From Tardiphaga sp. 709 (lineage in GTDB: Bacteria > Pseudomonadota > Alphaproteobacteria > Rhizobiales > Xanthobacteraceae), in the NCBI RefSeq assembly GCF_032401055.1, contig NZ_CP135529.1, positions 1-64,000 on the forward strand: 64,000 nt of DNA. The letters run 5' to 3'. Positions 25,410 to 54,249 of this stretch are shown piece by piece; position 1 is the first letter of the stretch; every line of letters begins with the position of its first letter. The notes beneath the pieces are model-generated. The model worked only from the letters and a program-made list of their open reading frames with translations, was not told the origin of the DNA and made no database searches. Both the position numbers and the translations under genes were made by a program.

Positions 25410-25685
25410 TCAGAACGAATCTGCCAACGCGATTTCCTGCTTCAGCGCCTCGATTCGCCGCGCGGCTTCAGCGCGCGTCAGATCCTTTTCGAATTGTTTG
25501 GGCTGATAGGCCTCGATCGCCAGCGATTTCAGCGTCAGCGCCTGGCCGCGGGTCATCGGGCCGGAGAGGCGATCCGGCAGGCTCTCATACGACGATACCG
25601 ATGCCGCAATCGCGGGGACGACGATCTCACCGCGGGTGTTCAAAGCAGGGGTCTTCAAAGCCAGGGTCTTTAAAGCAGGGGTCAT
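25410..25685 (-). CDS. DUF3072 family protein
   Basis: 91 residues. The C-terminal half, PMTRGQALTLKSLAIEAYQPKQF followed by DLTRAEAARRIEALKQEIALAD, matches my memory of DUF3072 (a short helical domain of unknown role common in Rhizobiales). The N terminus is encoded by a 15-bp tandem repeat giving PALKT-LALKT-PALNT. ATG 25685 is preceded by GGAGG at good spacing, so it is chosen over the ATG four codons upstream. Divergent from the two small SOS-box genes across 74 bp. Confidence 0.75.
   Translation of the reverse strand: MTPALKTLALKTPALNTRGEIVVPAIAASVSSYESLPDRLSGPMTRGQALTLKSLAIEAYQPKQFEKDLTRAEAARRIEALKQEIALADSF
25636..25680 (-). repeat. three 15-bp imperfect tandem repeats
   Basis: Units 25636-25650, 25651-25665 and 25666-25680 each follow the pattern GT(C/G)TT(C/T)AAAGC-AGGG on the plus strand. 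They code for the five-residue repeat at the N terminus of the DUF3072 protein and keep the frame. Confidence 0.8.
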
Positions 25686-25734
25686 GGGAACCTCCAAAAA
25701 TCCGATCTGGGTTGAAACAATGGCTTGTCAATTT

Positions 25735-25749
25735 GTTCTCTTTTTGTTC
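25735..25749 (+). promoter_or_regulatory. LexA (SOS) box in the promoter of the 25760 gene pair
   Basis: GTTC-TCTTTTT-GTTC is an exact match to the alphaproteobacterial LexA operator GTTC-N7-GTTC. It lies between a -35-like TTGTCA (25725-25730) and a -10-like CTATAT (25749-25754), the position expected for repression. The predicted transcription start coincides with the ATG at 25760. Confidence 0.8.
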
Positions 25750-25759
25750 TATATCGCAA

Positions 25760-25951
25760 ATGACCAAGCTCGCCAACCTGAATTTCAGAATCGCCCGGCT
25801 GCGCTACCAGATGAAAGGGGTGCAGTCGGATATCCGGCTGCTGACCAATGCCCAGCTGGATTGTGCCAATGCCGCCATGCGCCTGCGGCGGATGCAGGCC
25901 GATCTGCTGGCGCTCATCGCGGAGCGTGAGGTGCTGGCATGTCCGGCGTGA
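25760..25951 (+). CDS. small helical protein, first of an SOS-box pair
   Basis: 63 residues, family not recognised. The chain LNFRIARLRYQMKGVQSDIRLL and MRLRRMQADLLALIAEREVL has heptad-like hydrophobic spacing and many Arg, so a short coiled-coil hairpin is likely; no membrane segment. There is no Shine-Dalgarno before the ATG, and the likely -10 box ends five bases upstream, so the mRNA may be leaderless. Its last 13 bases overlap the next gene. The perfect LexA box upstream suggests induction by DNA damage. Confidence 0.65.
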   Translation: MTKLANLNFRIARLRYQMKGVQSDIRLLTNAQLDCANAAMRLRRMQADLLALIAEREVLACPA

Positions 25952-49011: not shown

Positions 49012-49710
49012 ATGGCGCAAGGGGCAGATGATGTACCGGTGGTCTATCTCCACGACATCAAGCGGCAATACACCCAGGGCGAAAGCGTTCTGACCATTCT
49101 CGACAATGCCAAGCTGGCATTGTGGGCGGGGCAGTCGGTCGCGCTGGTGGCGCCGTCCGGCTCGGGCAAGTCGACGCTGCTGCATATTGCCGGCCTGCTC
49201 GAGAGCCCGGACGACGGCGAGGTCTATGTCGGCGGCACCGCGACCTCGGGCCTGTCGGACACCGAGCGCACCCAGATACGTCGCACAGATATCGGTTTCG
49301 TCTACCAGTCACATCGGCTGCTGCCGGAATTCACCGCGCTGGAAAACGTCATGCTGCCGCAGATGATCCGCGGCTTGAAGCGCTCCGAGACGGTCGCCCG
49401 CGCCAAGGAAATCCTGGCCTATCTGGGTCTGGCCGAACGCATCACACATCGCCCCGCGGAGCTGTCGGGCGGCGAGCAGCAGCGCGTTGCGATTGCCCGC
49501 GCGGTAGCCAATGCACCGCGCGTGCTATTTGCGGATGAGCCGACGGGAAATCTCGATCCGCATACCGCGGATCACGTCTTCAAGGCGCTGATGCAGCTGG
49601 TGAAGGCGACCAAGGTGGCGATGCTGATCGCGACCCACAACATGGAACTGGCCGGCCGCATGGACCGGCGGGTGTCGCTTGAAAACGGCAAGGTCGTCGA
49701 ACTCGATTGA
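49012..49710 (+). CDS. lolD: lipoprotein-releasing system ATP-binding protein
   Basis: 232-residue ABC ATPase. Walker [19 protein letters not shown] (about 45-62), Q-loop [21 protein letters not shown], signature [17 protein letters not shown], Walker [13 protein letters not shown], and switch His in [11 protein letters not shown]. Nine bp after lolC, same operon. Confidence 0.96.
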
Positions 49711-49769: not shown

Positions 49770-50069
49770 TCAGTAGCTGCTCTTACGCTTGCGCTTCACG
49801 CGCGGCTGCTGCGGCGCGTAGGTCTGCGCATAGGCGTAAGCCGGATTGGCAAAGCAGGTCAGGCCGATGCCCGATGCCGTTGCTGCGCACTGCGCATAGG
49901 TGCGGTAGCTGCAGTCATCGTCGTCATAGAGCGAGCGCATGCAGAACGGGTAGCCGCTCGGGGTGTAGAAGGAGAACGGGCCGGGATCGACGGGCTGGGC
50001 CGCGGCGGGCGTGACGGTAAGGGCCGAAACGGCGCCGAGGGCGACCAGAGCAAGCAGGGCTGCGCGCAT
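49770..50069 (-). CDS. DUF3551 secreted small protein
   Basis: 99 residues with a clear signal peptide (MRAALLALVALGAVSALTVTPAAAQ, cleavage after about residue 25) and a mature part with paired cysteines and YPFCMRSLYDDDDCSYRTYAQCAATASGIGLTCFANPAY, the DUF3551 pattern common in Bradyrhizobium and relatives. Ends in a basic tail RVKRKRKSSY. Exported, function unknown. The upstream gap to 50341 shows no further gene. Confidence 0.85.
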   Translation of the reverse strand: MRAALLALVALGAVSALTVTPAAAQPVDPGPFSFYTPSGYPFCMRSLYDDDDCSYRTYAQCAATASGIGLTCFANPAYAYAQTYAPQQPRVKRKRKSSY

Positions 50070-50351
50070 CGAATTCTCCTGCCGACTCAGATGGCCGGCT
50101 GCATGTGATCTCTGACCGGCACAAAGCCGGTCCGAGAGGTATTCGTCAACTCACAAAGCCGGATTCCGCTCCGCATCTGGCGCCGGAAACATGCCGTAAC
50201 AGGGCTTGTTCGGCACATGCGAGGCAATACGGCGCAGATGATTCCCGGCGAGGGAGAGAGTCGGTTGACTGGGCGCAAAGCGTGCCGGCTCGCGGTCTTA
50301 ACCATTCGGAATATGAGGCGCGACACGTCCGGATCGGCTGCTTGACTCCAG

Positions 50352-50384
50352 GAACAGAATGAGAACAATGTTCTTCATATGTTC
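50352..50384 (+). promoter_or_regulatory. two LexA (SOS) boxes upstream of a 32-codon gene
   Basis: GAAC-AGAATGA-GAAC (50352-50366) and GTTC-TTCATAT-GTTC (50370-50384) are both perfect matches, in opposite orientation, to the alphaproteobacterial LexA operator. They are four bases apart and directly downstream of a TTGACT (50342-50347), so LexA would cover the -10 region and start site. The next gene starts at 50406. Confidence 0.88.
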
Positions 50385-50405
50385 CAGATAGTCACGGAGG
50401 CCACC

Positions 50406-50504
50406 ATGTTGAAGACCTTTGTTGAAGAAGCCGCTGCACTGGCATCGATCGTTCTGTTCGTGGGCATGATTGCGGTCTGGGCGCAACTGATCCCCCAGCT
50501 CTGA
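50406..50504 (+). CDS. SOS-controlled 32-residue membrane protein
   Basis: Begins MLKTFVEEAAALASIVLFVG and ends MIAVWAQLIPQL. The N terminus is a short amphipathic stretch with Lys and two Glu, followed by one hydrophobic helix (about residues 11-29), so a single-pass inner-membrane protein. Ribosome-binding site GGAGG lies six bases before ATG. Size, single span and LexA control resemble SidA of Caulobacter (29 residues, inhibits division through FtsW/FtsN), but there is no sequence proof of homology. An independent gene: 260 bp upstream of dnaE, divergent from DUF3551. Confidence 0.8.
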   Translation: MLKTFVEEAAALASIVLFVGMIAVWAQLIPQL

Positions 50505-50595
50505 TCCTGCTCCGGGACGCCGGCTGCGAAGCTGGCGCCGGAACACCGGGGAAGCGCTCGCCGGAGGATATGGGAACGCTCCCGGAGAATGACGA

Positions 50596-50613
50596 GCATT
50601 CCCTAGGGAATGC
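50596..50613. repeat. 18-bp perfect palindrome upstream of dnaE
   Basis: GCATTCCCTAGGGAATGC is fully self-complementary and is flanked by CCCGGA (50581-50586) and TCCGGG arms (from about 50623). The rest of the 50505-50766 gap has GC-rich, partly repeated text around GGGA-CGCT and no gene. Confidence 0.6.
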
Positions 50614-50766
50614 GGGGACGCTTCCGGGCCCGAGGGGGTTTCACATGGACTTGGCCGGGGGCAGGCATCACCATGGGGCAGCGAGTCGGCCTGAACAGGC
50701 TGCCGCGATCCCCAGTGTCGATGACTGCCCAGATCGGGCGCTGCAAAGTCCGGATTGTCCCACGTC

Positions 50767-53700
50767 ATGAGTCAGAAGCCCGCCGCCGCGTCGAATGCCG
50801 GATTTGTCCATCTCCACGTGCATTCGGCCTATTCGCTGCTGAAGGGCTCGATCAAGATCCAGAAGCTGGCGGAACTGGCCAAGGCCGACCATCAACCGGC
50901 GCTGGCGCTGACCGACAGCGACAACATGTTTGGCGCGCTGGAATTCTCCGAAAAGCTGGTGGGCTATGGCATCCAGCCGATTACCGGCTGCGAGGTCGCG
51001 ATCGATTTCGGCGACCAGGATCCCAACGCCCGTAATGCGCTGAATGCCGTGATGCCGCGCATTGTGCTGCTGGCTGCCAAGGAGCGCGGCTATCAGAGCC
51101 TGATGAAACTCAACTCGCGCGCGTTTCTGGAAACCCCGGTCAATCATGCGCCCCATATCAAGCTGGAATGGCTTCTGGAGGAGACGGAAGACCTGATCGC
51201 GTTGAGCGGCGGTCCTGACGGTCCGATCAATCAGGCGCTGCTTGCCGATCAATCCGCGCTTGCCGCTGCGCGCTGCGACCGGCTTGGGTCGCTATTCGGC
51301 GATCGGCTCTATATCGAACTGCAGCGTCATGGCGCCGAGAAGGAGCGCCGCGCCGAAGCCGGTTTGATCGACCTGGCTTACGCCAAGGGCCTGCCGCTGG
51401 TGGCCACGAACGAGCCGTATTTTGCTGCCGCGGATGACTATGAGGCCCATGATGCGCTGCTATGTATCGCCGGTGGCAGGATCATTGCCGAGACGGACCG
51501 CGAGCAGCTTACCACCGATCATCGCTTCAAGACCCGCGCCGAAATGGCCGTGCTGTTTGCCGACATTCCCGAGGCATTGGCGTCAACCGTCGAAATCGCC
51601 GAGCGCTGCTCGTTCCGGCCAAAGACGCGCAAGCCGATCCTGCCGCGCTTCACGGTGGGCGCCGGCAGTAACGCGGAAGGCGCGGCCCAGGAGGAATCCG
51701 ACGAGTTGCGCCGTCAGGCCGAGGAGGGGCTGCGCAAGCGTCTCGAGATCCACGGCGTGTCACAGGGCAAGAGCGAGGAGGAATACCACGCCCGGCTCGA
51801 CTTCGAACTGAACGTCATCTCCCGCATGAACTATGCGGGTTACTTCCTGATCGTGTCGGACTTCATCAAATGGGCGAAGGCGCAGGGCATTCCGGTGGGG
51901 CCGGGCCGCGGTTCGGGCGCTGGCTCGCTGGTCGCCTGGGTGCTGACCATCACCGATCTCGATCCCTTGCAGTTCAACCTTCTGTTCGAACGCTTCCTCA
52001 ATCCGGAGCGCGTATCGATGCCGGACTTCGACATCGACTTCTGCCAGGACCGCCGCGGCGAGGTGATCTCCTATGTGCAGCAGCGTTACGGTCGCGATCA
52101 GGTCGCGCAGATCATCACCTTCGGTACGCTGCAGGCGCGCGGCGTGTTGCGCGACGTCGGCCGTGTGCTGCAGATGCCCTATGGCCAGGTCGACAAGCTG
52201 ACCAAGCTGGTGCCGCAAAATCCCGCCGCACCGGTGACACTTGCAGCCGCGATCGAGGGCGAGCCGAAACTCCAGGCGCTCCGCGACGAGGATCCGATCG
52301 TCGCCAAAGCCTTCGATATTGCGCAGCGTCTCGAGGGCCTGACACGCCACGCTTCGACCCACGCAGCAGGCATCGTGATCGGCGACCGGCCGCTGTCGCA
52401 ACTCGTGCCGATGTATCGCGATCCGAAATCGGACATGCCGGTCACCCAGTTCAACATGAAATGGGTTGAGCCAGCAGGTCTCGTGAAGTTCGACTTCCTC
52501 GGCCTGAAGACGCTGACGGTGCTCGATGTCGCCGTGAAGCTGCTCAAGCAGCGCAATATTGACGTCAATCTTGCGACCACGCCGATTACCGATCCCAAGA
52601 GCTACGAAATGCTGGCGCGCGGTGAAGTGGTCGGCGTGTTCCAGGTGGAAAGCCAGGGCATGCGGCGCGCGCTTGTGGACATGCGCCCCGACCGTTTCGA
52701 GGACATCATCGCGCTCGTCGCGTTGTATCGTCCGGGCCCGATGGCGAACATCCCGACCTATTGCGCGCGCAAGCATGGCGATGAAGAGCCGGAATATCTG
52801 CATCCGATCATCGAGCCGATCCTGAAGGAAACCTTCGGCGTCATCATCTATCAGGAACAGGTGATGCAGATCGCGCAGGTCATGGCCGGCTATTCGCTCG
52901 GTGACGCCGACCTGCTGCGCCGCGCGATGGGTAAGAAGATCCGCGCCGAAATGGAAAAGCAGCGCGAGATCTTCGTCGCCGGCTCCGTCAAGAATGGTGT
53001 GCCGAAGGGGCAGGCCGATACGATCTTCGATCTGCTGGCAAAATTCGCCGACTATGGCTTCAACAAGAGCCACGCGGCGGCCTATGCGCTGGTGTCGTAT
53101 CACACCGCCTATATGAAGGCGCATTATCCGGTGGAGTTCATTGCGGCGTCGATGACGCTCGACATGGGCAACACCGACAAGCTGTCGGAATTTCGCGCCG
53201 AGGCGCAGCGGCTCGGTATCAAGGTCGAGGCGCCGAACATCAATCGTTCGGGCGTCACCTTCGAGGTCAGCGACAACACGATCTATTATGCGCTGGCCGC
53301 GTTGAAAGGCGTCGGCGCTGGCGCCGTCGAGCTGATCGTCGCCGAGCGCAACAAGAATGGTTTGTTCACGTCGCTTGCCGACTTTGCGTCGCGCGTGAGC
53401 CCACGCGCGGTCAACAAGCGCATCATCGAAACACTCGCTGCGGCCGGCGCCTTCGATACGCTCGATCCACATCGTGCCCGCGTGCATGGCGGCGCGGATG
53501 CTATTTTGGCCGCCTGCCAGAGTGCCCACGTGGATACGACAATCGGTCAGGGAAACATGTTTGGCGGCGCGGCCGATGCGCCGACCATCATGCTGCCGCA
53601 GATCGACAACTGGCTGGCGGCGGAGAAGCTGCGCAAGGAATACGACGCTATTGGCTTCTTCCTGTCCGGCCATCCGCTCGATGACTATGCGACCGCCCTG

Positions 53701-54249
53701 AAGCGACTGCGGGTGCAGAGCTGGGCCGAGTTCTGCCGCGCGGTCAAAACCGGCGCTACGGCGGGCAGGGTGGCGGCTACCGTCGTGTCCCGCATGGAGC
53801 GGAGGACCAAAACCGGCAACAAGATGGGCATCATGGGCCTGTCCGACCCGACCGGCCATTTCGAGGCGGTGCTGTTCTCCGAAGGGCTTGCCCAATACCG
53901 CGACGTGCTGGAACCGGGTACCGCGGTGCTGCTGCAACTCGGCGCCGAACTCCAGGGCGAGGACGTTCGGGCCCGGGTTCTCCACGCGGAGCCTTTGGAT
54001 GCCGCCGCCGCCAAGACCCAGAAGGGGCTCAGGGTGACCATGAAGGACACCAAGGCACTGGATTCGCTGGTAAAACGCCTCCAACCGCAGCCGAGCAATG
54101 CCGCCGGCGGAGGCGACGTTTCGCTGATCCTGCGCCTCGACCTGCAAACCGAGGTCGAATTCAAGCTCGAAGGCCGGTTCCAGGTGTCCCCGCAGATCGC
54201 CGGCGCCATCAAGGCGGTTTCCGGGGTGGAAATGGTCGAAACGCTTTGA
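50767..54249 (+). CDS. dnaE: DNA polymerase III alpha subunit
   Basis: 1160-residue replicative polymerase. N-terminal PHP domain (FVHLHVHSAYSLLKGSIKIQKL, LTDSDNMFGALEF), family C palm with catalytic aspartates in MPDFDIDFCQDRRGEV (about 418-432), GPGRGSGAGSLVAWVL, the fingers and beta-clamp-binding region, helix-hairpin-helix and OB domains to the C terminus. Length and context fit DnaE1 rather than the damage-linked DnaE2. ATG 50767 chosen; a TTG four codons earlier is in frame. Confidence 0.97.
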   Translation: MSQKPAAASNAGFVHLHVHSAYSLLKGSIKIQKLAELAKADHQPALALTDSDNMFGALEFSEKLVGYGIQPITGCEVAIDFGDQDPNARNALNAVMPRIVLLAAKERGYQSLMKLNSRAFLETPVNHAPHIKLEWLLEETEDLIALSGGPDGPINQALLADQSALAAARCDRLGSLFGDRLYIELQRHGAEKERRAEAGLIDLAYAKGLPLVATNEPYFAAADDYEAHDALLCIAGGRIIAETDREQLTTDHRFKTRAEMAVLFADIPEALASTVEIAERCSFRPKTRKPILPRFTVGAGSNAEGAAQEESDELRRQAEEGLRKRLEIHGVSQGKSEEEYHARLDFELNVISRMNYAGYFLIVSDFIKWAKAQGIPVGPGRGSGAGSLVAWVLTITDLDPLQFNLLFERFLNPERVSMPDFDIDFCQDRRGEVISYVQQRYGRDQVAQIITFGTLQARGVLRDVGRVLQMPYGQVDKLTKLVPQNPAAPVTLAAAIEGEPKLQALRDEDPIVAKAFDIAQRLEGLTRHASTHAAGIVIGDRPLSQLVPMYRDPKSDMPVTQFNMKWVEPAGLVKFDFLGLKTLTVLDVAVKLLKQRNIDVNLATTPITDPKSYEMLARGEVVGVFQVESQGMRRALVDMRPDRFEDIIALVALYRPGPMANIPTYCARKHGDEEPEYLHPIIEPILKETFGVIIYQEQVMQIAQVMAGYSLGDADLLRRAMGKKIRAEMEKQREIFVAGSVKNGVPKGQADTIFDLLAKFADYGFNKSHAAAYALVSYHTAYMKAHYPVEFIAASMTLDMGNTDKLSEFRAEAQRLGIKVEAPNINRSGVTFEVSDNTIYYALAALKGVGAGAVELIVAERNKNGLFTSLADFASRVSPRAVNKRIIETLAAAGAFDTLDPHRARVHGGADAILAACQSAHVDTTIGQGNMFGGAADAPTIMLPQIDNWLAAEKLRKEYDAIGFFLSGHPLDDYATALKRLRVQSWAEFCRAVKTGATAGRVAATVVSRMERRTKTGNKMGIMGLSDPTGHFEAVLFSEGLAQYRDVLEPGTAVLLQLGAELQGEDVRARVLHAEPLDAAAAKTQKGLRVTMKDTKALDSLVKRLQPQPSNAAGGGDVSLILRLDLQTEVEFKLEGRFQVSPQIAGAIKAVSGVEMVETL

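Follow-up and report, generated by a model that had tools for sequence, protein, structure and literature searches.

We report that a window of 64,000 nucleotides (the whole stretch of Tardiphaga DNA analysed) carries, immediately before dnaE, a gene for a 32-residue membrane peptide whose best reading is a LexA-repressed, divergent homologue of the Caulobacter division inhibitor SidA that probably arrests division at FtsW/FtsN. The gene, its selection, its operators, its homology and its neighbourhood were computed here.

The gene occupies positions 50406..50504 of the plus strand (ATG at 50406, TGA at 50502-50504) and encodes MLKTFVEEAAALASIVLFVGMIAVWAQLIPQL (32 residues), with a plus-strand GGAGG ribosome site (50396..50400) that lies 5 nt 5′ of the ATG and is mostly conserved across 16 aligned promoters. 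A preliminary description had placed a 32-codon gene with a GGAGG site directly after a promoter, and re-reading of the coordinates found this exact. A 41-aa in-frame reading from ATG 50379 was rejected because that codon sits inside LexA box 2 (below) and has no preceding GGAGG. The highest 19-residue Kyte-Doolittle mean of the peptide, starting at residue 11, is 2.3, so that one membrane span, as initially proposed, is plausible; the product is predicted to be a single-span inner-membrane protein of about 30 residues. Across 17 same-genus copies from Tardiphaga, pN/pS is 0.045, with residue changes in 5 codon columns and purely synonymous variation in 21; removal of the most divergent copy (L018) lowers pN/pS to 0.028 and leaves 23 synonymous-only columns and 2 with a residue change. 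The peptide gene is under purifying selection within Tardiphaga.

The promoter is built around two facing LexA boxes on either side of a candidate −10 element. A −35 hexamer TTGACT (50342..50347, plus strand) is followed by box 1, GTTCTCATTCTGTTC on the minus strand (50352..50366; read on the plus strand, GAACAGAATGAGAAC), an exact minus-strand GTTC-N7-GTTC that fills the −35/−10 spacer, and then by box 2, GTTCTTCATATGTTC (50370..50384, plus strand), an exact GTTC-N7-GTTC in the opposite orientation; together the boxes form an inverted repeat with 17-nt arms. The putative −10 hexamer between them, AACAAT (50364..50369, plus strand; 16 nt past TTGACT), was assigned by consensus match alone (9/12 with the consensus) and belongs to the only sigma-70-like site found by a scan of 50100-50900. 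TTGAC and all four half-sites, GAAC in box 1 and GTTC in box 2, are invariant in 16 promoters chosen by hand for alignment, which represent 15 genomes (L003 and L261 are from the same genome). The lexA and recA genes of the same genome each carry one box of the GTTC-N7-GTTC type (GAACACATATGGAAC and GAACATATTGCGAAC; 400 nt upstream were covered and the boxes were found within 200 nt of the match start), and the motif therefore fits the LexA of this organism. Single exact boxes in the window are within chance expectation (3 observed, 1.78 expected; 27 of 100 shuffles reach 3), and the facing pair is beyond it: GAACN7GAAC-N1..15-GTTCN7GTTC occurs once in the 6,359,564-base genome and is absent from the backward control. 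The description of two perfect boxes, one inverted, on a TTGACT promoter thus stands as given, with the facing pair unique in the genome. The peptide gene, with the LexA operator of the SidA type in its promoter, is almost certainly LexA-controlled, and the two operators would allow tight repression. A third exact LexA-type box in the window, GTTCTCTTTTTGTTC at 25735-25749, is flanked by a minus-strand ORF (25410-25697) and, on the plus strand, by a start near 25760, and may be a second SOS promoter or chance.

Boxes and peptide are kept together in relatives from the family and order, which we take to be Nitrobacteraceae and Hyphomicrobiales. The peptide, searched at E ≤ 10 against 41 genomes, had a match in 24: the genus contributed 17 (of 18), the other genera of the same family 6 (of 7) and other families 1 (of 16). 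The only genus genome with no match is 77% complete, one of the six matches in other genera (E 2.77) is taken as chance, and the match in another family (G036, E 0.28) comes with one box and dnaE. Among 27 peptide loci, the window's included, both boxes are present in 22, one in 2 and none in 3, and dnaE follows the peptide in 24; the loci lacking both boxes and dnaE are L024, L026 and L027, of which L024 and L027 were rejected as true copies and taken as chance and L026 is taken as a copy on a mobile island. Conserved boxes beside an unconserved peptide, the outcome that the preliminary description had set against its own proposal, is therefore not what these loci contain. In one genome (G021) two contigs (L021 and L025) carry the same peptide behind different promoters, perhaps from a mixed bin, perhaps by duplication. 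Another Tardiphaga genome contains a second SidA-like peptide (L348:7267-7353; G017:C1:2803266-2803352, minus strand), which shares 45% identity with that of the window (E 0.0018). A tyrosine integrase and an S24-type repressor are encoded nearby, and this second peptide is perhaps a prophage-borne division inhibitor.

The peptide was compared with SidA through the curated family model and through a profile grown without Caulobacteraceae. Among NCBIfam models at E ≤ 10 the sole match was div_inhib_SidA NF033228 (E 0.024, 14.6 bits, profile positions 7-28 of 29), which misses the curated cut-off of 35 bits, and Pfam returned no match. Of 139 genomes in f81, a family that we take to be Caulobacteraceae, 108 match NF033228 at E ≤ 0.01; 82 of these exceed the cut-off and the other 26 fall short of it, like the window peptide. 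The named control, Caulobacter vibrioides, scores over the cut-off. The window peptide is therefore filed as a divergent SidA homologue and not as an NF033228 equivalog. In a whole-genome search of the peptide's own genome, the top NF033228 match (G000:C1:5309877, E 0.57) was at a different place, and the matches listed did not include the window gene. The class-wide search at E ≤ 10 is dominated by noise, with matches in 190 of 385 genomes and also in 9 of the 14 control genomes; one of the 385 exceeded the cut-off, and of 30 loci only L028, L029 and L033 hold dnaE.

SidA loci of Caulobacteraceae were taken as the best-scoring 36 of the f81 matches (35 over the cut-off), to which L029 and L033 were added to give 38. 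The best-scoring 36 hold dnaE in every case, lolD in 24 (1500-base flanks) and an exact box ≤400 nt from the dnaE match in 29. In all 38, the SidA-type ORF is on the same strand as dnaE and ends 21-263 nt before the dnaE match (profile-measured), the gap being below 80 nt in 36. A separate set of seven loci (L217-L223, Caulobacter, Phenylobacterium and Brevundimonas among them) shows the peptide in 7/7 and an exact box in 4/7. Briefly, six peptides from the window's family seeded the f81-free profile, which was then grown over 158 dnaE upstream regions with all f81 genomes excluded. With the seed alone, 18 of the 38 Caulobacteraceae loci were reached at E < 1 and none at E < 0.01; at the latter threshold rounds 0-4 reached 0, 25, 27, 38 and 38 of 38, and SidA is the best match of the grown profile in all 38 loci (2741 ORFs searched). 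The profile link to SidA thus depends on iteration.

The window locus has the SidA place, before dnaE and after lolD. A LolD-type ABC ATPase gene (49012..49710, plus strand; named from its sequence, with tblastn relatives in the neighbourhood) lies upstream, and dnaE, for the DNA polymerase III alpha subunit (50767..54249, plus strand; likewise named from its sequence), begins 262 nt 3′ of the peptide gene. Between lolD and the peptide gene is a DUF3551 gene (49770..50069, minus strand; Pfam PF12071, E 7e-13), apparently inserted into the lolD-peptide-dnaE neighbourhood. A phage or plasmid origin was considered and rejected, as 50,697 phage and 72,556 plasmid records gave no match at E ≤ 10. 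With sequence and shared place before dnaE both pointing the same way, the peptide is very likely a SidA homologue, and the functional 'analogue' proposed at the outset should read 'divergent homologue': the likeness to SidA is strengthened by the NF033228 match, the iterated profile and the position. The literature searched (titles and abstract openings) yielded no report of SidA outside Caulobacter.

To describe how widely this arrangement extends, we examined 158 dnaE upstream regions, 91 from the window's own order and 67 from other orders. An exact box lies ≤700 nt from dnaE in 64 of the 158 (resampled sequence gave a mean of 3.3 and a maximum of 9 in 100 runs), namely 49 of 91 regions in the own order (42 without) and 15 of 67 in other orders (52 without). 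A Fisher test of box against peptide is non-independent, several peptides having been picked beside boxes, and a box-ORF test blind to peptide similarity was preferred; after three of the 64 regions were dropped (box <120 nt from dnaE), a hydrophobic ORF of 24-55 aa was found just 3′ of the box in 49 of 61. At 1880 random places in loci without a box the rate was 3% with ATG starts and 5% with three start codons allowed, and on the opposite strand it was 0/60. By sequence, 16 of the 158 regions matched a strict ten-peptide profile at E < 0.01, with none in the reversed control, and 50 of 158 matched the iterated f81-free profile. Class-wide at E ≤ 0.01, profile A1 had matches in only 16 of 385 genomes; 12 of these matches lie beside dnaE (5 from genomes supplying A1 rows, 7 from others), so that absence, or divergence past detection, is common. 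LexA-boxed membrane peptides precede dnaE in many, not all, of the other alphaproteobacteria sampled. Box-adjacent peptides before dnaE at L181, L197, L202 and L251, of the FE..VF....ATLVFWAEIVHSFTG type, fall below the profile thresholds and could be either a branch that has diverged or an SOS peptide of a separate kind.

The promoter plan of relatives was described with a further profile whose seed held Caulobacteraceae sequences, and the counts from it are descriptive only. Of 80 named loci listed, 27 score below 0.05, among them loci of Bradyrhizobium, Tardiphaga, Ancylobacter, Devosia, Stappia, Maricaulis, Phenylobacterium, Brevundimonas and Caulobacter; one profile match (L122) is on the minus strand. 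Among 78 profile-positive loci (some genomes counted twice, e.g. L157 and L278), 68 have an exact box ≤150 nt away, 41 of these with TTGAC ≤16 nt before the box. In the 68 box-bearing loci the first box reads GAAC on the gene strand in 64 and lies 14-116 nt before the peptide match, one exact box is present in 52 and two or more in 16, and 32 to 578 nt separate the peptide from dnaE. The usual plan is a single box within the promoter spacer; the second, facing box over the start region is seen only in the window's family, and there not in all members (G020 has one exact box).

Conservation is higher on one face of the predicted helix (A11, S14, F18, M21 and W25) than over the rest of it (hand-chosen alignment, permutation p 0.01), and 34 of 34 chosen rows have F at position 18 and an acidic residue, D or E, at position 8. 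W25 is missing from the six Caulobacteraceae rows of A1, which carry W at position 20. Of the FtsW residues A31, F145 and A246, changes at A31 and F145 are reported to suppress SidA (PMC4211646). The Caulobacter-like FtsW in our set (G608) has A31, F145 and A246 at those same numbers; A31 and F145 are kept in all four aligned proteins (the window's genome, G401, G483 and G608), and A246 in two of the three besides G608, with S in one of the four. As FtsW is just 45% identical, the kept A31 and F145 are weak support, only compatible with a peptide-FtsW contact.

A working model can be put together from these elements. LexA bound to both facing boxes, over the −35/−10 spacer and the start region, would shut the promoter; upon DNA damage, RecA-driven LexA cleavage would allow the 32-residue inner-membrane peptide to be made. 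Its conserved face, with the acidic residue at position 8, would then pack onto a membrane helix within the late divisome (FtsW/FtsI/FtsN) and hold that complex inactive until repair is complete. An arrest of the SidA type would leave the Z ring intact. We infer damage induction, contact with FtsW/FtsN and division arrest, the last by analogy with SidA, for which a block at FtsW/FtsN has been reported in Caulobacter (PMC4211646).

Four other explanations were weighed against this model. That the boxes arose by chance before a spurious short ORF would agree with single boxes in the window being no rarer than expected, and has a negligible probability given the unique facing pair, the box-ORF test, the invariant promoter half-sites and the purifying selection. 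The boxes might instead serve mainly dnaE, as an SOS promoter of the replicative polymerase with the peptide as passenger or leader. The scan of 50100-50900 found no terminator-like site, and the short peptide-dnaE gap in Caulobacteraceae makes read-through likely there; against this, the peptide has a pN/pS of 0.045, homologues across orders and, in the window, a distance of 262 nt to dnaE, and in relatives the box keeps close to the peptide while the peptide-dnaE gap varies widely. We consider this account unlikely, and dnaE co-induction may be a second output of the promoter.

The remaining two concern what the peptide does. Its size, single span and LexA control would all fit an SOS membrane peptide that acts by perturbing the membrane and not by divisome arrest. 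TisB is a small single-span toxin under LexA control, and DinQ is a small SOS membrane toxin (PMC3567139). Sequence and place, however, match SidA, a divisome inhibitor, and one conserved helix face suits a specific partner (with the p of 0.01 coming from a hand-chosen alignment), which makes such a toxin improbable. Alternatively, homology to SidA could be real and the target shifted, with division checked away from FtsW/FtsN or another process checked altogether. The six Caulobacteraceae rows with W20 in place of W25 and the low FtsW identity leave some room for a shifted target, whereas the invariant F18 and the D or E at position 8 speak for a retained one; we give it a small, though real, probability. 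Arrest of division at FtsW/FtsN by a LexA-repressed SidA homologue remains the preferred reading.

A broader reading carries, in our judgement, even chances: that SidA, far from being peculiar to Caulobacter, represents in Caulobacteraceae an ancient family of alphaproteobacterial checkpoint peptides, encoded between lolD and dnaE in Hyphomicrobiales, Caulobacterales and beyond, that was missed because its genes are only about 30 codons long, and that read-through would couple the arrest of division to induced synthesis of the replicative polymerase. The fixed position of a SidA-like gene before dnaE permits a direct test in rhizobia and relatives, and natural variants of the gene are usable for mapping how one helix stalls FtsW/FtsI/FtsN. 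Furthermore, a LexA box before dnaE may be that of a small gene missed by annotation.

Among known systems, SulA of E. coli is likewise an SOS-induced division inhibitor, and differs in disrupting FtsZ polymerisation and not the late divisome (PMC4211646). YneA, ChiZ and SosA of Gram-positive bacteria are damage-induced small membrane division inhibitors (PMC13396833), a likeness to the window peptide in kind alone with no homology claimed; YneA is reported to bind FtsW, and low-confidence AlphaFold 3 models place SidA at the opposite side of FtsW TM7 (PMC13396833). DidA of Caulobacter is also a small single-span membrane inhibitor of the late divisome, and unlike the window peptide it has 71 residues, is SOS-independent and DriD-controlled, and binds FtsN (PMC4211646). 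Closest is SidA of Caulobacter (NF033228). The two differ in length (29 versus 32 residues) and in the tryptophan (W20 versus W25), and the window locus departs from SidA loci in its 262-nt gap to dnaE, its facing box pair and its DUF3551 gene after lolD; shared are the size of about 30 residues, the one span, the acidic position 8 and the F18 invariant in aligned rows, together with a LexA box in most loci and a place on the dnaE strand just before dnaE, with lolD upstream in 24 of 36.
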